The translations under genes were made by a program, and so were the position numbers. From positions 1-41,588 of the forward strand of contig JADGDF010000016.1 in NCBI GenBank assembly GCA_016745055.1: 41,588 nt of DNA, written 5' to 3'. The stretch is from Thiotrichaceae bacterium. Its GTDB lineage: Bacteria > Pseudomonadota > Gammaproteobacteria > Beggiatoales > Beggiatoaceae. Shown piece by piece: positions 12,747 to 26,896 of this stretch (the first letter of the stretch is position 1; every line of letters starts with the position of its first letter). The notes beneath the pieces were generated by a model. The model made no database searches, was not told where the DNA came from, and saw nothing but the letters and a program-made list of their open reading frames with translations.

Positions 12747-14978
12747 TTAATTTGCTTGCATATAAGGTTTGACTAATTCGCAAATCTCTTTGGTATCAAA
12801 ACTTTTTGCAAGTTGTTTAATGCGTTCGGCGCATTGGCGTGTTGTTTCATCTGTCATGTGAGTCAATTCATCCACATTTTCCAAAATTGCGTAAACATCC
12901 CCTACAGAGGCCAGATCAAAAATTTTTATTGCTCGTTCAGCATTTAAAGTACATTGTTTTACCTCAGTGGTTGTACTTAGGTAATAAGTGTGCGTACTTT
13001 CATCCTGTATTTCATAACACCAAGACAATGCTAAATATTCTTCCAAAAGTTTGAGTAATATTTCAGCACGAACTGGCTTAGGAATAAAGTCATTACACCC
13101 TGATTCAAGGCTTTCTCTTTGGTGATAATCAAATACACTGGCAGAAATTGCAATGACTGGTGTTGTCTGTGTTTGAGGTAAAGTTCTTAATTTACGCGTT
13201 GTTTCGAATCCGTTCATAATGGGCATAACCAAATCCATTAAAATAATGTCAGGTAATACCTCTGGGCTTTGTTCAATACATTCTTGTCCATTAGCAGCTT
13301 CAAAGACTTCAAAACCAAGTGGCATGAGTAAACCGACTAAAACAGCACGATTTTCCCATTTATCATCAACAACCAGTATTTTTTGAGTTTCACCTTCATA
13401 ACCGACAATAGTAGGTGCTGTGGCTGAATTAACATTGGCAAGTCCAAAAACTTCAGGTAGCACTAGGGATAACCAAAATTTAGTGCCTTGTCCTTGATGA
13501 CTTTCAACATATAATTTTCCCCCCATGATTTCTACCAAATTTTTTGTAATCGCCAGCCCAAGTCCTGTTCCTTCTGCGCGGTAATCATGGTCACCAGCTT
13601 GTTGAAAGGGTAAAAAAATGTTATCAATTTCTTCAGGGGCAATGCCAATCCCAGTATCCTCAATTTGAAAACGAATTTTGATGTCATCATAGCCAATTTT
13701 AAAGGCAATACCGCCTTTTTCTGTAAATTTGATTGCATTACCTAATAAATTAATTAATATTTGACGCAACCGTTTTTCATCGGCATGAATGCCTTCTGGT
13801 AGCTGAGAGAGGGGCTCGTAAATAAAAGATAACCCTTTTTGTGCAGCCCGCATCCTAAATAAATCAATAATACTACTTAAAAATTTCTCGAACTGAAAAT
13901 CAGTTGGATACAGTTCAATTTGACCTGCTTCAATTTTTGATAAATCTAAAATATCACTGATAAGCGTAAGTAAATATTCACCACTTTGACGGACAATTTT
14001 AACACCTTCTTTTTGCTTTTCAGTCAAGCTTTTATCTCGTTCAAAAATTTGTACATATCCTAAAATACCGTTGAGCGGCGTCCGCAATTCGTGACTCATA
14101 TTAGCCAGAAAAGTACTTTTAGCCCGATTAGCCCCTTGCGCTTCAATTCTTGCACATTCCGCCGTTTCTTTTGCTTGCTTTAAACGTTCAGTATGAACTT
14201 TTAAATCTTGCACCATTTTATTAAAAGAATTTGCCACATCGCCTAGCTCGTCCTGGGAACGCACGGTAATTAGTTGGGAAAAATCACCTTTCGCTAATCT
14301 TTTAGCTGCACAACTAAGTTCTTCTAATGGTTTAGAAAGAATTCTTGATAGTAAAAAGGTTAATACTGCAGAAATAAATAGGACAATAAATACAGAAGAC
14401 AGTCCTACGCGCTTAAATGTGAGTATAAAATTATCCCACACTTCAGTAATGCTTTTATCCTGATTAGCAATAATATTGCGCGGCGCTTCTGCTTCTAAAC
14501 TGAGTTCAACGTAGCCTGCAATAATTTCACTTTCTTTAACTTCATACAACAATTTGTAACCATCGGAGATTTCAATCAAGGCAACAGGGGTTGAGTTAAA
14601 TGCGGCGAGAGGGATATTAATTTTTTCTTGTGAAATGGCACTAAGAATGCCTTCAGAGAGCATAACCTTGCCTTCAGCATCTGCTATCCGAATACTGCGT
14701 ATAGGTAACCAAAAATGGAGTTCTTTGACAACAGATTCAAGCGTTTCAATTTTAGCTTGATGCAAAGGATCAAATAGGTGGGTGCGCAAATATTTACTAA
14801 CGTTACTTAAAGTAGCACTTTGCGCATTTAAATAATCCCGTTTAGTTTTTTCTTTAAGATTATTTTTTAAATTGTCAGCATCATGCCATAAAATCGTTCC
14901 TAACACCAAAAGTACGCTGATTAAAATGCTAATATTAATAATACTTAAATAAGTAGCGTATTTGGTGCTGATTTTCAT
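12747..14978 (-). CDS. Hybrid sensor histidine kinase with receiver domain
   Basis: This inner-membrane sensor kinase has 743 residues. In order: membrane helix ~10-31, periplasmic sensor region ~32-190 of no recognised family, membrane helix ~193-212, HAMP (~210-262), a short coiled coil, then HisKA with MSHELRTP (phospho-acceptor His296). The HATPase domain follows, with N414 (GNAIKFTE), DTGIGIAP (441-448) and GTGLGL (470-475). Next comes a receiver domain (Asp538-Asp539, phospho-acceptor Asp582, Lys634) and a helical tail from ~685. The tail (GDVYAIL...AERIKQLAKSFD) resembles the tails of both giant kinases upstream. There is no HPt domain in the usual form and no DNA-binding regulator nearby. 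TfpX-like and TonB-receptor genes follow on the same strand. Confidence 0.93.
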   Translation of the reverse strand: MKISTKYATYLSIINISILISVLLVLGTILWHDADNLKNNLKEKTKRDYLNAQSATLSNVSKYLRTHLFDPLHQAKIETLESVVKELHFWLPIRSIRIADAEGKVMLSEGILSAISQEKINIPLAAFNSTPVALIEISDGYKLLYEVKESEIIAGYVELSLEAEAPRNIIANQDKSITEVWDNFILTFKRVGLSSVFIVLFISAVLTFLLSRILSKPLEELSCAAKRLAKGDFSQLITVRSQDELGDVANSFNKMVQDLKVHTERLKQAKETAECARIEAQGANRAKSTFLANMSHELRTPLNGILGYVQIFERDKSLTEKQKEGVKIVRQSGEYLLTLISDILDLSKIEAGQIELYPTDFQFEKFLSSIIDLFRMRAAQKGLSFIYEPLSQLPEGIHADEKRLRQILINLLGNAIKFTEKGGIAFKIGYDDIKIRFQIEDTGIGIAPEEIDNIFLPFQQAGDHDYRAEGTGLGLAITKNLVEIMGGKLYVESHQGQGTKFWLSLVLPEVFGLANVNSATAPTIVGYEGETQKILVVDDKWENRAVLVGLLMPLGFEVFEAANGQECIEQSPEVLPDIILMDLVMPIMNGFETTRKLRTLPQTQTTPVIAISASVFDYHQRESLESGCNDFIPKPVRAEILLKLLEEYLALSWCYEIQDESTHTYYLSTTTEVKQCTLNAERAIKIFDLASVGDVYAILENVDELTHMTDETTRQCAERIKQLAKSFDTKEICELVKPYMQAN

Positions 14979-15047: not shown

Positions 15048-15073
15048 AGACACACGCGAGATAACGTGTGTCT
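15048..15073 (-). terminator. Hairpin after the 37-residue frame
   Basis: AGACACACG (15048-15056) and CGTGTGTCT (15065-15073) make a perfect 9-bp stem with an 8-nt loop, 22 nt after the stop of the small minus-strand frame. The sequence after it on the minus strand (ACCATCTTTTATC) has only a short T run, so it would be a weak terminator. Confidence 0.4.
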
Positions 15074-15418: not shown

Positions 15419-18400
15419 CTATCCTTCAATAAAAGGTTCCAATAAATCGGCAATAGGATCTGTATCGTAGTCTTTTGCTGTTTGACGAATTTTATCAATT
15501 AGTGGTGCAAATTCAGATGTCAGAAGTTCCAAATCATCAGCTTGCTTAAGTAAGGCTTTTACATCACCAGTCATACTTGAATGATATAGCATGGCAATTT
15601 GCTCTGCTGATAATAAAGGAATGATTTCTTCTAGCGTGACTTCGTCATTTGAATCTTCTGCATATTCCTCAAATTGCTCGGCCTCTTCTCGCACCTGTAA
15701 TAAGTCAGATATTTTTCCACGCCATTCAATGCTTTCCACTAGAGGTACATCCACTTTAAAACAACTGCCCTGATCAATTTGGCTTTCAACTTGTATTTCT
15801 CCATCTAAAGCTTCTACTAATTTTTTTACAAGAGATAAACCTAAACCTGCACCTTCTGATTTGTGTTTCCAATCACTGATTTGTTCAAAAGGTAAGAATA
15901 TCTTGCCCAAATTTTCTGGAATAATACCACAACCTGTATCTGCTATTTGAAAGCAGATTTTATTTTGATGAGACATCACTGTGAAGGTAATTTCACCTTG
16001 TTGAGTAAATTTTACTGCATTGCTTAATAAATGAGTGAGAATTTGTCTAAGTCTCTTTTCATCTGAAGATATGCCTAAAGGTAATTCAGGCGAGAAAACA
16101 TGATGAAGTTTCAAGCTTTTTTCTTGAGCTCGATGACGAAATATATCTATCAGATTGTTCAAAAAGGTATCGAAACGAATATCTGCCGAAGAAATAGTGG
16201 TTTTTCCCGTTTCTACGGTGGAAATATCAATAATATCATTAATTAATGTTAGTAAATACTTACCGCTTTGTTCAATAAGTTGGCTGCCTTCTTGAGCCGC
16301 TTTGGAAAGGCTTGCATCACGATTAAAAAGTTGAACATACCCTAAAATAGCATTGAGCGGTGTTCTTAATTCATGACTGACATTGGCGAGAAAGGCCGTT
16401 TTGGTTTGATTAGCAATTTCAGCTTGACGACGTGCTATCTCTAAATCTTCAACAAATCGAGCATTTTCCAAGGAAATAGCAATTTGACTAGAAAGTATTG
16501 TTAACACATTCAGGCGATGTTGTGTAAATGCACCCATGGTTAAATTATTTTCAAAATACAAAATTGCCCGTAGCTGTTGCTGATAAACAATTGGAAAGCA
16601 TAAAACTGATTGGGTTTGATGCGTTTTAATGTAAGGCGTTTGGGTGTAAAGCCCTTCACGCGATGCATCAGTTAACACCACATTTTCGTGGGTGCGAGCT
16701 ACGTAATTAATAATTACTTCGGGCAGATGGTTTCCAACCGGCAAAGATTGCAAAGTGATAATTTCTTCCTTATCTATCGCGCTTTCAGCTTCAATGACCC
16801 ACCTATCTTCATAGGGTAAAATCAAAAAACCTCTCTCAGCTCCTGCATTTTCAATGACGATGCGCATCATCTTTTCCAAAAGTTGATTTAATACAATTTC
16901 GCCAGAAAGTGTTTGCGCTGCTTTCATCACACTTTCTAAATCTAATAATTGAGAAGTGCTGGTATGCGTACCTGTGGAAGCTAAAATAGTGGCTGTTGAA
17001 GTGTGTGTTAGTATATTTGTTGAAGTAGATTGGGTATTTTTTTGGATAAGCCATTGAGGATAATGTTCTTCTAAGTCAGTGACTTTAGCGATGGCTCCCC
17101 ATTGTTGGTAGCGATAATGTGCCTCTTTCAAGTAGGTTTGGGCAATTTTTTCCATGTCCCGTTCTAAATAGAACTGAGCTGCAAGTTCATAAGCTAATGC
17201 TTCTTCTTGGAGATATTCATGCTTTTCAGCGCCAGCAATCGCCTTTTCATACCATTCAATTGCGTTAAGTTGTCCTAAAATTCTTGCTTTTTCAGCTTCA
17301 ACTAAGTCATATTTATGCTGATAGTTCATTGGCGCATGAAAAGCCCACATTTCCATCTTTTTTTGATTTGCTTCTACTTGATGAATGATTTGTGATTGTT
17401 TATCAGGCAAAGCTGTAGGATAAGTTGCTAATAAAGCTAAGGAGTAATAGAATTTATGTATGGGAATGACCATCACGCCAACATTGGTCTGTTCATGCTC
17501 TTCAGCCAACACTGCGTTAGCTACTGATTGGGTAAAATCTTTAAATAAGTAATAAAGTACTGATTTTGATAAATAAATACCAAAAGCTGCTAAACCATAG
17601 TTAGTTTCAAGCACACTGGGTAATATTTCATCTTCGTTGAAGGCTTCGCCTATTAAACGGCACGGTTCAGCACTAAGCCCTTGTAAATTAAAGACTGCTT
17701 GTTGCCAAATTTTGACGTAAAGGAGCTGATATTCTTGCCTTATATTTTTGAGCAGGGTATGAAATTTTTTCTGTTGTTGTGCCACCGTTTCCAGTGGTTC
17801 ACCGACCCAAAATAGATAACTGCTACAGTGCATGGCTGTGACACCCGCGAACTCCAAATCTCCAGTTTCTAATCCACTTTGGCTCCCTTCTATTAAAGGC
17901 GCAATGGTTTCTCTTGCATGTTTTTTCCAGTGATGAACCGCTGCATTATAAGCAGCAAATCCTTTAGCTTTTAGTTCTTTTGCGTTAAATTTTTCTAGTA
18001 AATTGATGGCCAATTGACCTGCTTGGTATCCTGCCTCTACTTCTCCTAAGGCTGCGCAAAGTAATAACCCATAAGTTGAATAACCAAAAACAGAAAGAGC
18101 AGAATTTCCATGCTCGGCTGACAATTTAACCATCGTAAATACAATTTGTGGAAAAAGCTCAGGAGCAACGGTATAAGAAGGTGAAATAGCAAAATTTAAA
18201 ATTCGCATGGCCGCTAATTTGTCAGGGGCAGTCATCTCTGGCAGTGTATAGCAATGTTCAATTTCTAACTGTTTTGGTGGCGCTTTTTCTAAATTGACTC
18301 CCAGCATTTCTAGTACTTGTAATGCCGTGTCTAATGCAGCTTTTATTTCATTTTTTGCCATATAAAACTGGATAAGCACTTCATAGACTTTGAGTTTATC

Positions 18401-20848
18401 TAATAATGTTTTGGCTTGTTGCAAAATCATCTGAGCAAGCTTTTTAGTTTGTTCAAAATTAGCGTGTAAAAATTCTACTTCGACGATTTCTACATACAGA
18501 TTAAGTGTCAACTCGTAATTTGTCTGCCAACAATCCTTTGATAAACATTTTAACCCTTCTTTCAAATAGTTAACCGAAGCCCCGTAAGCCGTTGCTGCTT
18601 TTGCCTTTTGGCCAGCTATCAAGTTTAATTCTGCAACTTTAAGGCGTTCAACCTGGTTATTGATTAATTCAATACCACTGTTAAATTGTCCTACGATATC
18701 AAATATTTTTTCTTCCAATATATCAGTAGGCGCATTTTCTAACAGCAAACGACCTATTTTTAAATGAATAGTTTGTTTATGCTCATCCTCAATTAAGGTG
18801 TAAGCAGCTTGTTGCACTCTATCATGTAGAAATTTGAACTGAGACTGAGAAACTTCTTTAAGCTGTTTATAATTATCATTCAAAGGCTGCACAAGCCCTT
18901 CAATGAGAGCCGCCGCTAATGCTGCTAATGTTTCATTTTGGGTTTGCTCATAGATAATAGCTAAAATCGACAAATCAAACTGATTCCCCATACATGCTGC
19001 TAATTGTAAGACGGCTGAGGTGTTTGAAGGTAATTTGTCAATCTTATTGGCCATTAATTCAACCACATTCGCCGTGATATTCTGGCCGGCTATCTGTTTA
19101 ACATCCCATTGCCATTGACGTTGTTTAAAATCAAATTGCAATAATGCTTCTTGATAGAGTGTGTGCAAAAATTGATGCGTAAAAAAAGCATTACCTTGAG
19201 TTTTCTGGTGAATCAAATCAGTGAGCGGTTGAGATAATTGCGCTTCACATTTGAGACTATCTTGTAATAGTTGATTAATATTGGTTAGCTGCAAATTGTG
19301 AAGTTCAATGGTATTAATGCTAACATGTGCCTTTTGCAGTTCGTCTAAGGTCATGATGAATGGATGACTGCTACCTACTTCATTATCCCGATAGGCACCA
19401 ATAATCAGCAGATGTTGGACCTCACCATCAAGCATGATACTTTTAAGCAAACGCAAAGAGGCGGAATCTACCCATTGCAAATCGTCGATAAATAAAATGA
19501 AAGGATGATTTTTATCACATAAGGCTTTAATAAAGTTGAGGAAAAATATCTGAAATCGATTTTGTGCTTCAGTGGGGCCTACTTCTATCACTTTGGGTTG
19601 AGAGCCAATGACTAATTCCAAATCAGGAATCACATCAATAATAATTTGGCCATTATTACCTACCGCATCAAGGATTCTTGTTTGCCAATTGGCCAAAGTA
19701 CCTGTGTTTTCCATCAACAAATAACGACAAAACTCGTTAAATGCTTGCGTAATTGCAGAATAAGGGATATTTTTTTGGAATTGGTCAAACTTGCCTGCTG
19801 TAAAATAACCCCGTTTCTCAGTCATTGATTTATGAACTTCATGCACCAACGCTGTTTTACCCACGCCTGAATAACCGGCAACTAACATCATTTCAGTTTT
19901 TCCTAAACTGACGCGTTCAAAGGTTTGCAGGAGGGTATTAACTTCGTTCTCACGCCCATAGAGCTTTTGTGGAATCTGCAACTTGCCTGAAAAATCATTT
20001 TGAGCCAATTGAAAAGAAACAATCTGACTTGTATTAGCCAACTGCAAGGTGCATTTTTCTAAATCTGCTTTAACGCCAAAAGCAGATTGATAACGATCTT
20101 CAACATTCTTTGCCATCAGTTTCATCACAATATCTGAAACAACTTCAGGCACATCAGGATTAACTTCATATATTGGCTTGGGCGTTTTAGCGATGTGGCA
20201 ATGAACCAACTCTAAAGAGCTTTCAGCTTCAAAGGGTAATTTACCGGTCAACAACTCATAAAAAGTCACCCCTAAAGAATATAAATCGGTACGATAATCC
20301 AAACTTCGATTCATGCGACCAGTTTGTTCTGGCGAAATATAAGGTAAAGTACCTTCGAGTTTTTCAGGGTTTTTGAGTGTAGGATTTTCTCGTGGTAAAC
20401 GACTAGAAATACCAAAGTCAATGATTTTTAATTGACCTTCAGATTGATTCCAAACAATATTTGAAGGATTTATATCTTTATGGATAATATCAGCTTTATG
20501 AAGGTGTCCCAGACTTTCAGTCATTTGAAGGCTGAGAGGAAGAAAATGCTCAATGGGTAACTTACTTAGCGTTTTTAAAGCCTTGCCACCAAAATCTTCC
20601 AAGATGATGACCAACGTATTTTGATATTTTTGCAGACTGTAGACTTTGATAACACCCAATATATCCAAGCTTTTGGTTATCTTATATTCTTGTTGATAAC
20701 GATTGAGAGCTTCTGAGGAAGGATAATCTTGCCTGAGCATCTTTAAGATAACAGGCAAACCATCTGTTTGACGCTTTCCTCGATAAACTATTGAGTTATT
20801 ACTCTCATAAATGAGTTCAGAAACTTGGTAACCCTGAATAGATAGCAT
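15419..20848 (-). CDS. Giant Ser/Thr kinase-ATPase-histidine kinase, copy A
   Basis: This is a 1,809-residue cytoplasmic signalling protein of the trifunctional type known from cyanobacteria (HstK-like) and Beggiatoaceae. In order: Ser/Thr kinase (1-270) with Lys36, HKDINPSN (123-130, catalytic Asp125), DFG (144-146) and SPE (172-174), while the glycine loop is degenerate, as usual here. An AAA/ORC-like ATPase (~293-560) has Walker A GYSGVGKT (325-332) and Walker B Asp455-Asp456. A long TPR-like helical region (~665-1265), a Thr/Ser-rich spacer and a GAF domain (~1305-1465) follow. The histidine kinase has SHELRTP (His1492), N1610 and GAGLGL. There is no receiver domain and no membrane segment. 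Its start lies 6 nt after the stop of copy B, with GGAGG inside the end of B, so the two are co-transcribed. Residues 1-664 are identical to copy B. Confidence 0.94.
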   Translation of the reverse strand: MLSIQGYQVSELIYESNNSIVYRGKRQTDGLPVILKMLRQDYPSSEALNRYQQEYKITKSLDILGVIKVYSLQKYQNTLVIILEDFGGKALKTLSKLPIEHFLPLSLQMTESLGHLHKADIIHKDINPSNIVWNQSEGQLKIIDFGISSRLPRENPTLKNPEKLEGTLPYISPEQTGRMNRSLDYRTDLYSLGVTFYELLTGKLPFEAESSLELVHCHIAKTPKPIYEVNPDVPEVVSDIVMKLMAKNVEDRYQSAFGVKADLEKCTLQLANTSQIVSFQLAQNDFSGKLQIPQKLYGRENEVNTLLQTFERVSLGKTEMMLVAGYSGVGKTALVHEVHKSMTEKRGYFTAGKFDQFQKNIPYSAITQAFNEFCRYLLMENTGTLANWQTRILDAVGNNGQIIIDVIPDLELVIGSQPKVIEVGPTEAQNRFQIFFLNFIKALCDKNHPFILFIDDLQWVDSASLRLLKSIMLDGEVQHLLIIGAYRDNEVGSSHPFIMTLDELQKAHVSINTIELHNLQLTNINQLLQDSLKCEAQLSQPLTDLIHQKTQGNAFFTHQFLHTLYQEALLQFDFKQRQWQWDVKQIAGQNITANVVELMANKIDKLPSNTSAVLQLAACMGNQFDLSILAIIYEQTQNETLAALAAALIEGLVQPLNDNYKQLKEVSQSQFKFLHDRVQQAAYTLIEDEHKQTIHLKIGRLLLENAPTDILEEKIFDIVGQFNSGIELINNQVERLKVAELNLIAGQKAKAATAYGASVNYLKEGLKCLSKDCWQTNYELTLNLYVEIVEVEFLHANFEQTKKLAQMILQQAKTLLDKLKVYEVLIQFYMAKNEIKAALDTALQVLEMLGVNLEKAPPKQLEIEHCYTLPEMTAPDKLAAMRILNFAISPSYTVAPELFPQIVFTMVKLSAEHGNSALSVFGYSTYGLLLCAALGEVEAGYQAGQLAINLLEKFNAKELKAKGFAAYNAAVHHWKKHARETIAPLIEGSQSGLETGDLEFAGVTAMHCSSYLFWVGEPLETVAQQQKKFHTLLKNIRQEYQLLYVKIWQQAVFNLQGLSAEPCRLIGEAFNEDEILPSVLETNYGLAAFGIYLSKSVLYYLFKDFTQSVANAVLAEEHEQTNVGVMVIPIHKFYYSLALLATYPTALPDKQSQIIHQVEANQKKMEMWAFHAPMNYQHKYDLVEAEKARILGQLNAIEWYEKAIAGAEKHEYLQEEALAYELAAQFYLERDMEKIAQTYLKEAHYRYQQWGAIAKVTDLEEHYPQWLIQKNTQSTSTNILTHTSTATILASTGTHTSTSQLLDLESVMKAAQTLSGEIVLNQLLEKMMRIVIENAGAERGFLILPYEDRWVIEAESAIDKEEIITLQSLPVGNHLPEVIINYVARTHENVVLTDASREGLYTQTPYIKTHQTQSVLCFPIVYQQQLRAILYFENNLTMGAFTQHRLNVLTILSSQIAISLENARFVEDLEIARRQAEIANQTKTAFLANVSHELRTPLNAILGYVQLFNRDASLSKAAQEGSQLIEQSGKYLLTLINDIIDISTVETGKTTISSADIRFDTFLNNLIDIFRHRAQEKSLKLHHVFSPELPLGISSDEKRLRQILTHLLSNAVKFTQQGEITFTVMSHQNKICFQIADTGCGIIPENLGKIFLPFEQISDWKHKSEGAGLGLSLVKKLVEALDGEIQVESQIDQGSCFKVDVPLVESIEWRGKISDLLQVREEAEQFEEYAEDSNDEVTLEEIIPLLSAEQIAMLYHSSMTGDVKALLKQADDLELLTSEFAPLIDKIRQTAKDYDTDPIADLLEPFIEG
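18856..20848 (-). repeat. 1,993-nt direct repeat, copy in kinase A
   Basis: This segment encodes residues 1-664 of copy A and matches 24331-26323 at a constant offset of 5,475 nt. The two translations are identical, and no base difference was seen where the DNA was compared line by line. Identity ends abruptly just after codon 664 (YKQLK) and, at the other side, at the start codon. It covers the kinase and ATPase modules only. Confidence 0.92.
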
Positions 20849-20854
20849 ATTTGG

Positions 20855-23800
20855 TTATCCTCCAACAAAAGGTTCCAATAAATCGGCAATGGGGTCAGTA
20901 TCATAGTCTTTCGCAACTTGACGAATTCTATCAATCAATGGCATCAATTTGGGATCAATGTGTTTCAGTTCATTAGCTTGTGCAATCAGGGCATTTACGT
21001 CACCTGTCATGCTTGAATCATACAGAGTAGCAATTTGTCCCACGGATAATAGGTGAATAGTTTCTTCCAACATGGCATTAGTTGTGTTTTCTTCCAATTC
21101 ATCAAATTGTTCAATATCTTTTGAAACCTGTAATAAATCAGCTTTTTTCCCAAACCATTCCACACTTTCTACTAACGGAATATCCACTTTAAAACAACTG
21201 CCTTGATTGATTTGGCTTTCAACATGTAATTCGCCATCCAATGCATCTACCAATTTTTTAACCAGTGATAATCCCAAACCAGCCCCTTCTGATTTATGTT
21301 GCCACTCACTGACTTGTTCAAATGGCAGAAAAATCTTTTCCAAATTTTCAGTAATGATGCCTACACCTGTATCTTCTATCTGAAAGCGAATTTTATCCTT
21401 ATGCAACATCACTGTGAAAGTAATTTTACCTTGTTGAGTAAATTTCACTGCATTGCTTAATAAATGGGTAAGAATCTGTCTCAGCCTTCTTTCATCTGAA
21501 GATATGCCAAATGGCAAGGCCGGTGAAAAAACCATGTCAAATCTTAACCCTTTCTCATGTGCCTGGAGGCAAAAGATATCTGCCAACTTGCTTAGAAAGT
21601 TTTCGAGGCGAATATCTATCGGAAAAACAGTTGTTTCTCCTCTCTCTACTGTAGAAATATCAATGATATCATTAATTAATGTCAGTAAATATTTACCGCT
21701 TTGTTCAATGAGTTGACTACCTTCTTGAGCCGTTTTGGAAAGGCTAGCATCGTGATTAAACAGTTGAACATACCCTAAAATTGCGTTCAAAGGGGTTCTT
21801 AATTCATGGCTAACATTAGCGAGAAAAGCTGTTTTGGTTTGATTGGCGATTTCGGCCTGACGACGTGCTATTTCTAAATCTTCAACAAATCGAGCATTTT
21901 CTAGTGAAATGGCGATTTGACTGGACAATATTGTCAACACATTCAAGCGTTGTGGCGTAAATGCACCTGTGGTTAAATTATTTTCAAAGTATAAAATTGC
22001 TTGTAATTGTTGTTGATAAACAATTGGAAAGCATAGAACTGATTTAGTTTGATGGGTTTTAATGTAGGGAGTTTCAATATATAACCCTTCACAGGATGCA
22101 TTAGCTAATACCACACTCTCATAGGTGTGGGCAACATAATTTACTATCACTTCAGGCAGATGCTCTTGAATTGGTAGAGACTGCAGTATTGTGACTTCAA
22201 CTTTATCTATAGCGCCTTCTGCTTCAATGACCCACTTGTCTTCATATGGTAAGAGCAAGAGACCGCGCTCGGCACCTGCATTTTCAATAACGATACGCAT
22301 CATTTCTTCCAATAATTGGTTTAACACGATTTCGCCAGAAAGTGTTTGCGCTGCTTTCATTACACTTTCTAAATCTAACAATTGTGAAGTACTAGTTTGC
22401 GTTGATAGTTGAATAGTTGCGGTTAAAGTGTTAGTCACAGTAACTGCATGGTTCTCAGTTAACCATTGGGAATAGCGTTCTTCTAAATCTTTTACTTTTG
22501 CAATAGCACCCCACTGTTGATATATATATTGGGCCTTCTTTAGATAAATAGAAGCCGTTTTTTTTCTGCTCTTTAAAAGATAAAATTTAGCCGCTAATTC
22601 ATTGGCAAGTGCTTCATTTTGGGCAAAACCTCTTTCTTTTGCTGCCATAATTGCGTCATCGTATAAAGACATTGCCAGTAATTCTTTTCCTTCATACTGA
22701 GCGGCTTCGGCTTCCAGTAAACAATGGAAGACAAAAAAATTCTCTTCACATTGCACCGAGCACTTTTTGATGAATTCACGGCTAGCTTTAAGGGTAGGTG
22801 CGTAACGTTCTCTTTCCGTTATTGATGATTGTTGTGAATATAAAGAGAATATAGATAAAGCACAGTAAAAGTGATACTCCGATGTGGTAATATGTCCGCC
22901 ACAACCTGCAATGTGCTTTTCAACCGCCGGAATGTAAGATAATGCTTCTTCATACTGTCCAAATAAACAAAGACTTTGCAGCTTGCGTATGTAATAATTT
23001 CCGGCCACCATGGGAACAATTTCCCAGGTCTCAATAAATTCCTGTTCATCAATGATTTCATCGTTAATTTGATAAGAAAAACTTGAATTATCTTGTGTTT
23101 TTCCTAACAGATTGAGTGCTGCCATCTTCATGGTACGACTTAACGCACTGATAAATGTTAATTTTTTTGCATCACAAAATTCAATGGCTATATCTGATTC
23201 TTGAACAATTTCATCCAAGTGTGCACCGCTGGTAAAAAATAGAGGTTGAGCAGGAACACTGAAACAGTAAGAAGCAAAAGCAAGGTTGCCACATTCCATT
23301 GCTTTTAAAAAACCTCTTTTAGCTACTTCAAGGTTGGTTAAAGGATTTGCCATCCAATGATTGATATGCCAGGCAAAAAAAGCCGATTCTTTCGTAATAA
23401 GTTGGGGATCAGGATATTTTTCTTCAATCAAACGAATGCCCATTGTGGCTAAACGATGTCCGGTGACATGGTCACGGAATTGAGTGATAAAAATAACACC
23501 CAACAAGACATAAGCAAAAGCAGAGTGACTAGAATTACCATATTGCAGTGAAAAATTAACACCAACAAAAGTCAAAAGTAAATAAGAATTTGGATGGCCA
23601 ATTAGAGCTAAATCTCCCAATTTTGATAATAAGAATAATATTTCTCTAGCGCGTTCATCTTGCATTTCCGGTAAATCAAATAAACTATCAATGCTTTTGT
23701 CACCTAGTAATTCTTTAAATCTTTCCATTTCAGGTAAAAAGCTGTCAGAATCTACTTTATTCAAAGAGGGAAGGACAACGTCAAATAATAGCAAAGCTTC

Positions 23801-26323
23801 AAAGCCAATTTCCAAAGCACGCAAATATTCAGCTTGAGTACCGTACAGTTCAATTTGAAGGTGATAAACTTTGAGTTTATCTTTAGTAGATGTTGCTAAT
23901 TTTAAGAGTTCGTTTGATAACGCTTCTGCTACTTTAAAATTAGAAGAAAGAAATTCGCTTTCTGACTGTTCCAGGTATAAATTAAAAGCCAATGAATAAT
24001 GAGTGATCCAATGATTCTCAGGAAGGAGTTCAATCGCTATACGTAAATACTGTACAGAAGAAGTATAAGCAACAGATTCTTTAGCCTTTTTGCCAGCCTT
24101 TAAATTCAATTCAGCTAAATGAATTCGCTCATTTTCATCATAAATAATATTCACCCCTTCATTTAGTTGATCAACAATTTTAAAAATATGCTCTTCCAAA
24201 TCTGTAGTATTTTCTAACAGCAAACGACCTATTTTTAAATGAATTGTTTGTTTATGGTCATCCTTAATTAATGCATATGCAGCTTGTTGCACTCTATCAT
24301 GCAAAAATTTGAAAGAAGTCTTTTCGTCCGCTTTAAGCTGTTTATAATTATCATTCAAAGGCTGCACAAGCCCTTCAATGAGAGCCGCCGCTAATGCTGC
24401 TAATGTTTCATTTTGGGTTTGCTCATAGATAATAGCTAAAATCGACAAATCAAACTGATTCCCCATACATGCTGCTAATTGTAAGACGGCTGAGGTGTTT
24501 GAAGGTAATTTGTCAATCTTATTGGCCATTAATTCAACCACATTCGCCGTGATATTCTGGCCGGCTATCTGTTTAACATCCCATTGCCATTGACGTTGTT
24601 TAAAATCAAATTGCAATAATGCTTCTTGATAGAGTGTGTGCAAAAATTGATGCGTAAAAAAAGCATTACCTTGAGTTTTCTGGTGAATCAAATCAGTGAG
24701 CGGTTGAGATAATTGCGCTTCACATTTGAGACTATCTTGTAATAGTTGATTAATATTGGTTAGCTGCAAATTGTGAAGTTCAATGGTATTAATGCTAACA
24801 TGTGCCTTTTGCAGTTCGTCTAAGGTCATGATGAATGGATGACTGCTACCTACTTCATTATCCCGATAGGCACCAATAATCAGCAGATGTTGGACCTCAC
24901 CATCAAGCATGATACTTTTAAGCAAACGCAAAGAGGCGGAATCTACCCATTGCAAATCGTCGATAAATAAAATGAAAGGATGATTTTTATCACATAAGGC
25001 TTTAATAAAGTTGAGGAAAAATATCTGAAATCGATTTTGTGCTTCAGTGGGGCCTACTTCTATCACTTTGGGTTGAGAGCCAATGACTAATTCCAAATCA
25101 GGAATCACATCAATAATAATTTGGCCATTATTACCTACCGCATCAAGGATTCTTGTTTGCCAATTGGCCAAAGTACCTGTGTTTTCCATCAACAAATAAC
25201 GACAAAACTCGTTAAATGCTTGCGTAATTGCAGAATAAGGGATATTTTTTTGGAATTGGTCAAACTTGCCTGCTGTAAAATAACCCCGTTTCTCAGTCAT
25301 TGATTTATGAACTTCATGCACCAACGCTGTTTTACCCACGCCTGAATAACCGGCAACTAACATCATTTCAGTTTTTCCTAAACTGACGCGTTCAAAGGTT
25401 TGCAGGAGGGTATTAACTTCGTTCTCACGCCCATAGAGCTTTTGTGGAATCTGCAACTTGCCTGAAAAATCATTTTGAGCCAATTGAAAAGAAACAATCT
25501 GACTTGTATTAGCCAACTGCAAGGTGCATTTTTCTAAATCTGCTTTAACGCCAAAAGCAGATTGATAACGATCTTCAACATTCTTTGCCATCAGTTTCAT
25601 CACAATATCTGAAACAACTTCAGGCACATCAGGATTAACTTCATATATTGGCTTGGGCGTTTTAGCGATGTGGCAATGAACCAACTCTAAAGAGCTTTCA
25701 GCTTCAAAGGGTAATTTACCGGTCAACAACTCATAAAAAGTCACCCCTAAAGAATATAAATCGGTACGATAATCCAAACTTCGATTCATGCGACCAGTTT
25801 GTTCTGGCGAAATATAAGGTAAAGTACCTTCGAGTTTTTCAGGGTTTTTGAGTGTAGGATTTTCTCGTGGTAAACGACTAGAAATACCAAAGTCAATGAT
25901 TTTTAATTGACCTTCAGATTGATTCCAAACAATATTTGAAGGATTTATATCTTTATGGATAATATCAGCTTTATGAAGGTGTCCCAGACTTTCAGTCATT
26001 TGAAGGCTGAGAGGAAGAAAATGCTCAATGGGTAACTTACTTAGCGTTTTTAAAGCCTTGCCACCAAAATCTTCCAAGATGATGACCAACGTATTTTGAT
26101 ATTTTTGCAGACTGTAGACTTTGATAACACCCAATATATCCAAGCTTTTGGTTATCTTATATTCTTGTTGATAACGATTGAGAGCTTCTGAGGAAGGATA
26201 ATCTTGCCTGAGCATCTTTAAGATAACAGGCAAACCATCTGTTTGACGCTTTCCTCGATAAACTATTGAGTTATTACTCTCATAAATGAGTTCAGAAACT
26301 TGGTAACCCTGAATAGATAGCAT
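20855..26323 (-). CDS. Giant Ser/Thr kinase-ATPase-histidine kinase, copy B
   Basis: This 1,822-residue protein has the same layout as copy A: Ser/Thr kinase 1-270, ATPase ~293-560, TPR-like region ~665-1280, GAF ~1315-1480, histidine kinase with SHELRTP (His1506), and an acidic helical tail ending in LLEPFVGG. Residues 1-664 are identical to A. The TPR-like part is only distantly similar, and the GAF-kinase part is similar with many mostly silent changes. It is the first gene of the tandem, preceded by 573 nt of leader with three inverted repeats, and AGGAG lies 11 nt before its ATG. The different middle parts suggest that the two proteins receive different inputs through partner binding while sharing enzymatic heads. 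Targets are unknown. Confidence 0.94.
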   Translation of the reverse strand: MLSIQGYQVSELIYESNNSIVYRGKRQTDGLPVILKMLRQDYPSSEALNRYQQEYKITKSLDILGVIKVYSLQKYQNTLVIILEDFGGKALKTLSKLPIEHFLPLSLQMTESLGHLHKADIIHKDINPSNIVWNQSEGQLKIIDFGISSRLPRENPTLKNPEKLEGTLPYISPEQTGRMNRSLDYRTDLYSLGVTFYELLTGKLPFEAESSLELVHCHIAKTPKPIYEVNPDVPEVVSDIVMKLMAKNVEDRYQSAFGVKADLEKCTLQLANTSQIVSFQLAQNDFSGKLQIPQKLYGRENEVNTLLQTFERVSLGKTEMMLVAGYSGVGKTALVHEVHKSMTEKRGYFTAGKFDQFQKNIPYSAITQAFNEFCRYLLMENTGTLANWQTRILDAVGNNGQIIIDVIPDLELVIGSQPKVIEVGPTEAQNRFQIFFLNFIKALCDKNHPFILFIDDLQWVDSASLRLLKSIMLDGEVQHLLIIGAYRDNEVGSSHPFIMTLDELQKAHVSINTIELHNLQLTNINQLLQDSLKCEAQLSQPLTDLIHQKTQGNAFFTHQFLHTLYQEALLQFDFKQRQWQWDVKQIAGQNITANVVELMANKIDKLPSNTSAVLQLAACMGNQFDLSILAIIYEQTQNETLAALAAALIEGLVQPLNDNYKQLKADEKTSFKFLHDRVQQAAYALIKDDHKQTIHLKIGRLLLENTTDLEEHIFKIVDQLNEGVNIIYDENERIHLAELNLKAGKKAKESVAYTSSVQYLRIAIELLPENHWITHYSLAFNLYLEQSESEFLSSNFKVAEALSNELLKLATSTKDKLKVYHLQIELYGTQAEYLRALEIGFEALLLFDVVLPSLNKVDSDSFLPEMERFKELLGDKSIDSLFDLPEMQDERAREILFLLSKLGDLALIGHPNSYLLLTFVGVNFSLQYGNSSHSAFAYVLLGVIFITQFRDHVTGHRLATMGIRLIEEKYPDPQLITKESAFFAWHINHWMANPLTNLEVAKRGFLKAMECGNLAFASYCFSVPAQPLFFTSGAHLDEIVQESDIAIEFCDAKKLTFISALSRTMKMAALNLLGKTQDNSSFSYQINDEIIDEQEFIETWEIVPMVAGNYYIRKLQSLCLFGQYEEALSYIPAVEKHIAGCGGHITTSEYHFYCALSIFSLYSQQSSITERERYAPTLKASREFIKKCSVQCEENFFVFHCLLEAEAAQYEGKELLAMSLYDDAIMAAKERGFAQNEALANELAAKFYLLKSRKKTASIYLKKAQYIYQQWGAIAKVKDLEERYSQWLTENHAVTVTNTLTATIQLSTQTSTSQLLDLESVMKAAQTLSGEIVLNQLLEEMMRIVIENAGAERGLLLLPYEDKWVIEAEGAIDKVEVTILQSLPIQEHLPEVIVNYVAHTYESVVLANASCEGLYIETPYIKTHQTKSVLCFPIVYQQQLQAILYFENNLTTGAFTPQRLNVLTILSSQIAISLENARFVEDLEIARRQAEIANQTKTAFLANVSHELRTPLNAILGYVQLFNHDASLSKTAQEGSQLIEQSGKYLLTLINDIIDISTVERGETTVFPIDIRLENFLSKLADIFCLQAHEKGLRFDMVFSPALPFGISSDERRLRQILTHLLSNAVKFTQQGKITFTVMLHKDKIRFQIEDTGVGIITENLEKIFLPFEQVSEWQHKSEGAGLGLSLVKKLVDALDGELHVESQINQGSCFKVDIPLVESVEWFGKKADLLQVSKDIEQFDELEENTTNAMLEETIHLLSVGQIATLYDSSMTGDVNALIAQANELKHIDPKLMPLIDRIRQVAKDYDTDPIADLLEPFVGG
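24331..26323 (-). repeat. 1,993-nt direct repeat, copy in kinase B
   Basis: Partner of the segment at 18856-20848 (offset 5,475 nt). The 18 nt before the two ATGs are also related (GT-GGAG-ATAA pattern), but differ. Recombination between these copies would remove 5,475 bp and leave one chimeric kinase gene. Confidence 0.92.
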
Positions 26324-26896
26324 ATGTAATTATTCTCCTACTACAAGAAACGCGTAGGTTGGAGTACACTTGGAAACTCCAACAATTTTAGTAAATTAAC
26401 TTAAAATCTCAATATTTGATTGATATTAGCATCAAATATATTTTGTAGGGTAACCTATGTTCAAATTATATAGATAGATAGTTTGAACAAGAATATTACT
26501 TACTAATTATATAGGACTTACGTATTGATAAAAGCCCTATAATGAGAAAAAGATAATTTACAGTGAGATAATTTAGTTAAGTTGAGCACTGACAGTTTGT
26601 TGTACTATGTTAATGTACTTAAACTTTTTTCTCAGTGAATCTAAGTATCCACCAAGTTTAGTTGTTAAGTTAATTGAACTGTCGAGTGTTTTTATCTGAT
26701 TAGGCTGCGCAACAAACTTATTTTGTAAGCGCGCTAGTAGACGTGAAAATTACTGCGCTTTTGGTATATGAGTGTGAAAAAGAAGTCAATCGCAGAATTA
26801 CAGAAAATCCAATACTAAATTAATACGTTGACATTTTATTACTCCCAAACTTTGGTTTGGGAGAGCTGAAAACCAAAAATATTCTTTGATTACTTA
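26324..26896. promoter_or_regulatory. Leader/promoter region of the giant kinase operon
   Basis: This 573-nt gap between kinase B and map has no credible gene. Three inverted repeats lie close together upstream of kinase B. GTTGGAGT/ACTCCAAC is at 26358-26365 and 26376-26383. ATATTTGAT/ATCAAATAT is at 26412-26420 and 26431-26439. TGTTCAAA/TTTGAACA is at 26458-26465 and 26482-26489. The first lies 35 nt before the ATG and would be in the messenger. The other two have the size of regulator binding sites. I could not pick a promoter with confidence. Confidence 0.45.
26842..26863 (-). terminator. Hairpin after map
   Basis: CTCCCAAAC (26842-26850) and GTTTGGGAG (26855-26863) form a perfect 9-bp stem with a 4-nt loop, 33 nt after the map stop on the minus strand. 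The following bases (TAATAAAATG) are not a T run, so it is a weak terminator at best. The CCCAAAC-type arms recall the hairpin after rpsB. Confidence 0.45.

Follow-up and report, generated by a model that had tools for sequence, protein, structure and literature searches.

A tandem pair of Beggiatoaceae dual kinases with identical heads and separate sensor lineages, probably shaped by gene conversion between neighbours

Two adjacent genes in a 41,588-nt contig from a Thiotrichaceae bacterium, the whole of which constitutes the window analysed here, encode large dual kinases that share an identical catalytic head and a similar kinase tail around sensor-like middle regions belonging to two different lineages. 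The explanation that we favour, with a probability of roughly 0.8, is that gene conversion or a comparable form of recombination between neighbouring genes overwrites the ends of such proteins while old TPR sensor modules persist between them. The source genome assembly comprises 4.65 Mb in 356 contigs, and we place this filamentous sulfur bacterium in the Beggiatoaceae on the strength of its named relatives, Thiomargarita, Thiotrichales bacterium HSG1 and Parabeggiatoa.

Both genes lie on the minus strand, co-oriented and head to tail. The upstream member, gene B (20855..26323), encodes a protein of 1822 amino acids, the downstream member, gene A (15419..20848), one of 1809, and only 6 nt (20849..20854) separate the stop codon of B from the ATG of A. 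The order of domains in both proteins is a Ser/Thr kinase (residues 10-254, PF00069, E 9e-37), an AAA_16 ATPase (residues 295-483, PF13191, E about 1e-39), a long middle region to which Pfam assigns no domain, then a GAF domain followed by a histidine kinase. Both retain the kinase motifs VILK, HKD and DFG, the Walker A (GYSGVGKT) and Walker B (FIDD) motifs of the ATPase, and the histidine kinase motifs SHELRTP, DTGxG and GxGLGL. The pair thus has the N-terminal Ser/Thr kinase with its catalytic residues and the C-terminal GAF, HisKA and HATPase_c domains that characterize the dual Ser/Thr-His kinases of the cbSTKIII (HstK) type, together with the AAA_16-type NTPase bearing Walker A and B motifs that is expected of a STAND ATPase. 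Among the best 25 NCBIfam families for each protein, none attained its cut-off.

A ribosome-binding-like GGAGG precedes gene A and overlaps the 3' end of gene B, and a consensus scan of the minus strand finds no terminator-like site within or between the two genes. The same scan, which is the sole basis for the assignment, places a terminator-like hairpin 3' of A (15048..15073, minus strand). From this arrangement of sequence signals it is predicted that A and B are probably co-transcribed. Just 5' of the ATG of B is a near-perfect inverted repeat (26358-26383, GTTGGAGT...ACTCCAAC), possibly a regulatory hairpin, with a weak promoter-like site on its far side. On the strand of A, past the terminator-like hairpin, positions 12747-14978 encode a hybrid sensor kinase (HAMP, HisKA, HATPase_c and receiver), whose receiver is a candidate partner for the tails of A and B. 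The TAACTGA repeats known from marine Beggiatoaceae do not occur within the window.

An initial annotation of this DNA had described adjacent genes of about 1,800 codons that share residues 1-664 exactly, and this description holds: the genes have 1809 and 1822 codons, and their exact match extends for 1,993 nt counted from the ATG (18856..20848 in A and 24331..26323 in B, both on the minus strand), covering the Ser/Thr kinase and the AAA_16 ATPase. The tract begins at the ATG, which is where the homology between A and B starts, only 2 nt matching 5' of it, and it ends at codon 664-665, near the point where the homology drops. None of the approximately 419 synonymous sites in the head has changed (NG86). 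The longest run of polymorphic third positions at which A and B agree comprises 384 sites, which exceeds the expectation from shuffled polymorphic sites at p <= 0.002, the smallest value that the 500 permutations used can return. The tract thus has two properties by which gene conversion is recognized, namely identity that includes silent sites and is flanked by diverged homologous sequence, and an identical run longer than chance would produce. Immediately beyond the exact tract, a stretch of B (24209..24313, minus strand) is 91% identical to positions 18734-18838 of A, and the next 41 codons (residues 665-705) have a dS of about 0.5, which is intermediate between the head (0) and the tail (about 1.1); this stretch is possibly the remnant of an older, longer tract that is now decaying.

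Since the silent sites of the head are identical as well as its amino acids, selection on the protein is insufficient to account for the identity, and copying of DNA is needed. The suggestion that selection for an identical head was the cause is unsupported, and the accompanying suggestion of gene conversion is borne out to the extent that the head must have been copied, whether by conversion or by another form of recombination. A second tandem pair of the same genome, on contig C316, served as a control: its heads differ at 236 of 354 synonymous sites (67%), which rules out codon or protein constraint as the reason for the identity. The upstream gene of that second pair (L017 7095-12308; G000 C316 32594-37807) has lost its reading frame over approximately the first 83 kinase residues, with DNA similarity extending past a TAA, and it may be either a decaying gene or the product of a sequence error. 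The exact head is present in two copies in the whole assembly, those of A and B; a search for further copies, which the initial annotation had proposed, found no third.

The tails (15419..16891 in A and 20855..22324 in B, both minus strand) consist according to Pfam of a GAF domain (residues 1320-1460 in A and 1334-1474 in B), HisKA (1483-1548 and 1497-1562), HATPase_c (1596-1703 and 1610-1717) and a C-terminal extension, and they are 81% identical in protein sequence. Their divergence is much greater than that of the heads, with 162 of 284 synonymous sites changed (57%) and a dS of about 1.1 (NG86). The 24 differences previously counted by eye in 190 nt of this region (16261-16450 against 21694-21883) prove to be exact, and 21 of them fall at third codon positions. 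The middles (17159..18808 in A, residues 681-1230; 22589..24283 in B, residues 681-1245; both minus strand) are the most divergent part, being 31% identical in protein, in agreement with the earlier description of distantly similar TPR-like regions, and changed at 232 of 322 synonymous sites (NG86). The base-by-base comparison that had been recommended was carried out in blocks: identity is exact in the head, about 15-30% in protein over most of the length of the middle in 50-codon blocks, and about 59-98% in the corresponding blocks of the tail, where third positions are about 50-70% identical. Given a head that has no silent changes, a tail that has changed at 57% of its silent sites and middles that are 31% identical, no single date of duplication fits the pair, and the contention that one duplication is insufficient stands.

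It may nevertheless be asked whether a simple tandem duplication could have been followed by much faster evolution of the middle while selection kept the head identical. The adjacency and common orientation of A and B are what such a duplication would leave, but the head is identical at silent sites of which two thirds have changed in the C316 pair, and comparison with the rest of the family gives no indication of a fast middle. The head found a match in all 43 of the family genomes searched, some of which have 25-32 matches when matches to the kinase alone are also counted. The sample analysed, 99 family members of which 91 are near full length, was chosen mainly by likeness to the head in the window and is thus a partial census. 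Between orthologues of the same genus the identities of head, middle and tail are, for example, 96/95/97, 87/86/86, 82/81/75 and 72/73/72%; the three parts are about equally conserved, which rules out the middle as a fast-evolving part.

Comparison across genera leads to a different arrangement of relationships for each part of the protein. Gene A and a gene of another genus (G037_C284) are 61% identical in the head, 70% in the middle and 41% in the tail; gene B and a different gene, also from another genus (G038_C207), are 53, 65 and 40% identical in the same order. In trees of the separate parts, A and B group together in head and tail but are widely separated in the middle, where A belongs to a lineage with G037_C284, G033_C247 and others and B to the lineage of G038_C207 (gene L021). 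For the middle, the approximately unbiased (AU) test rejects a single clade of A and B (p 0.0001); in the tail, two groupings are rejected, B with G038_C207 (p 0.001) and A with G037_C284 (p 5e-8). Because the two middles are closer to genes of other genera than to each other, the account by simple duplication with a fast middle can practically be set aside. These comparisons show that each middle stems from its own old sensor lineage, and that both lineages are present in other genera with other ends. What varies is which ends flank a given middle; the sensors themselves are old and stable. The proposal that the pair is a diversifying module in which different inputs share an output is thus partly supported: the combination of different input with shared output is retained and seen in other Beggiatoaceae, but diversification is unsupported for middles that are 65-70% identical across genera. 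Over the sample as a whole, the nearest relative lies within the same genome for 28 of 86 heads, 19 of 86 tails and 10 of 86 middles (head versus middle p 0.0003, tail versus middle p 0.049), values that should be read with the caution that the genes are not independent.

The same mosaic pattern could in principle be produced from the opposite direction, if the two ends had been duplicated together and a new TPR middle had then been recombined into one of the copies as a cassette. Each middle does have homologues set in other frames, but the difference between a tail dS of about 1.1 and a head dS of 0 means that a recent event limited to the head must be postulated in any case. Middle replacement is therefore unlikely as a complete explanation, although it may have contributed at an earlier stage. 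The recent event is confined to the head, and for the older events the overwriting of ends and the movement of middles are both compatible with the data. Another possibility is that the two heads owe their identity to an outside source, each having been replaced by an incoming allele of another strain through horizontal transfer. Segments of mixed affiliation are on record for Beggiatoaceae sensor kinases (MacGregor 2016, PMC5108060), but two events would be necessary and the neighbouring gene is the simplest donor, so that this indirect route is very improbable.

If the assembly is not taken into account, an exact repeat of this length might be mistaken for a biological one when similar heads have merely been merged into one consensus that is used twice, or when the second head has been misplaced. 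The assembly was checked through the ends of contigs. Each end of the 41,588-nt contig (1-100 and 41339-41588) falls in a dispersed repeat for which about 40 genome matches are listed, and the right-hand one is part of an element of approximately 850 bp inside copies of which many other contigs also end. These features suggest a short-read assembly, and an exact repeat of 1,993 nt is longer than a short read. On the other hand, the contig contains no N and all four repeat junctions are assembled, and mosaics are also found in a genome assembled into 10 contigs (G003). Merging, moreover, operates only on copies that are already nearly identical, so that a recent copying event remains even if it occurred. 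The order of the two heads is probably right, since a two-copy repeat around one unique loop should be orderable by graph topology, with the junctions depending on read support. An assembly artefact is accordingly an improbable source of the pattern. The draft assembly may still have merged small differences between the heads, and we place more trust in the statement that they are nearly identical and recently copied than in the statement that they are exactly identical. In another genome (G048), contigs C118 and C152 (L095, L096) end in the same 123 bp of the kinase head with which contig C81 begins; shared heads can thus break assemblies, and near-identical heads may be under-counted for this reason.

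Comparable mosaics are found elsewhere in the Beggiatoaceae. A tandem pair in HSG1 has 83% identity in the head, 30% in the middle and 84% in the tail, with 212 nt exact around the start. In the 10-contig genome, five such kinases are encoded on one strand (L055 and L056; G003 C7 57295-89411), with an opposite-strand gene between the first two, and two neighbours in this array share exact blocks of 445, 1022 and 389 nt beside blocks with a dS of 0.2-0.4; the blocks of exact identity between neighbours are patchy and include the GAF-histidine kinase region. In the complete genomes G002 and G031, used as controls, copies of the gene that are dispersed have no significant identical runs. When adjacent pairs are compared with other pairs within a genome, the median identity is 78 versus 54% for the head and 77 versus 40% for the tail, and 35 versus 35.5% for the middle, an effect that is strong before stratification and still significant for the ends when stratified by genome (head p 0.0016, tail p 0.012). 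Significance is lost when G000, the genome of the window, and G003 are dropped, and since the stratified signal comes mainly from the window's own genome, we make no claim that adjacency is a general driver of similarity between ends. The modular pattern of different input and shared output is real and is found again in other Beggiatoaceae.

A structural interpretation of the middle is available at the level of the fold. The middle of B was modelled together with seven relatives, and the result is an alpha-solenoid of mean pLDDT 83. Its comparison with domain III of MalT (Z 20.5, rmsd 4.2 over 338 residues) speaks for the fold rather than for function, because helical repeats easily reach high Z scores. 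The top structural matches include TPR receptors of the Rap, NprR and AimR type (Z 17-21), and Foldseek also matches PH0952, a STAND protein whose sensor is of the TPR type; a sequence search of solved structures with the middle found no relatives. The modelled middle of B thus has, at fold level, the TPR solenoid that follows the ATPase in a STAND protein, and on grounds of fold and family (PMC6468293) A and B are likely to be STAND switches in which a TPR sensor is joined to two kinase outputs.

The sequence of events that we propose under gene conversion between neighbours is as follows. The middles of A and B come, as the sequences show, from two sensor lineages that are old and distinct. 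Within what the assembly can resolve, one gene has recently received the opening 1,993 nt of the other. This copying would have been ectopic homologous recombination, namely gene conversion, with the neighbouring gene as partner, and older rounds of it may have made the tails alike. A shared head and a similar tail would keep the outputs and the oligomerizing ATPase common to both proteins, while each TPR sensor would answer its own ligand or partner, giving two inputs to one output and possibly mixed oligomers. We offer as a hypothesis that the identity of the heads is maintained by selection, or that A and B assemble into mixed complexes. A more general proposition can be formulated for the STAND dual kinases of the Beggiatoaceae, though we regard it as tentative: that their TPR sensors are old exchangeable cassettes and their output ends are repeatedly homogenized among neighbours, which would allow different sensors to go on working with a single shared output, or within mixed oligomers, and would amount to concerted evolution confined to the output parts and maintained by selection.

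The pattern suggests a way for a bacterium to multiply its inputs without drift of the output, old sensors being kept and catalytic ends copied between neighbours. It also has practical consequences, because trees built from the kinase domain or from the whole protein will mislead about orthology in such families, and because a head shared between genes is a place where draft assemblies can break or be merged. The pair lends itself to testing directly whether two different sensors can operate within one complex when their ATPase heads are identical.

Several known systems resemble the pair in part. The cyanobacterial dual kinases cbSTKIII (HstK) likewise begin with a Ser/Thr kinase and end with GAF-HisKA, occur in many copies in filamentous bacteria, and include an adjacent, co-transcribed pair, alr0709/alr0710 of Anabaena PCC 7120; shuffling among kinase, GAF and HisKA domains between family members has been reported for them (PMC2176072). 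That survey, in the portions drawn on here, works with domain trees and does not describe an identical DNA tract, an analysis of silent sites or lineages of TPR middles. In the STAND ATPases MalT and PH0952, as in A and B, a TPR solenoid sensor lies behind the ATPase core, and the fold of MalT domain III is matched by the middle of B, but A and B carry two kinases as outputs in place of a DNA-binding domain (PMC6468293). Multidomain sensor kinases of Ca. Maribeggiatoa are also Beggiatoaceae signalling proteins with segments of different affiliation, in a study that centred on the REC domains of histidine kinases and not on dual kinases or gene conversion (PMC5108060). With respect to the process, bacterial duplicates such as tufA/tufB are alike within a genome at silent sites, which has been explained by gene conversion (PMC6053082), and A and B show the same likeness between paralogues; that study, however, deals with conversion along the entire gene, whereas in A and B the likeness is confined to the ends and does not extend to the middles. 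The hnwd STAND family of Podospora consists of paralogues that are likewise shaped by recombination between members, but there it is the sensor repeats that recombine and diversify (PMC2873952), whereas the sensors of A and B are old and stable and their ends are homogenized. A limited literature search found no precedent for homogenization confined to both ends around stable TPR sensors. Dual kinases, domain shuffling and full-length concerted evolution are thus each known, and what looks new in this pair is the limitation of homogenization to the ends.
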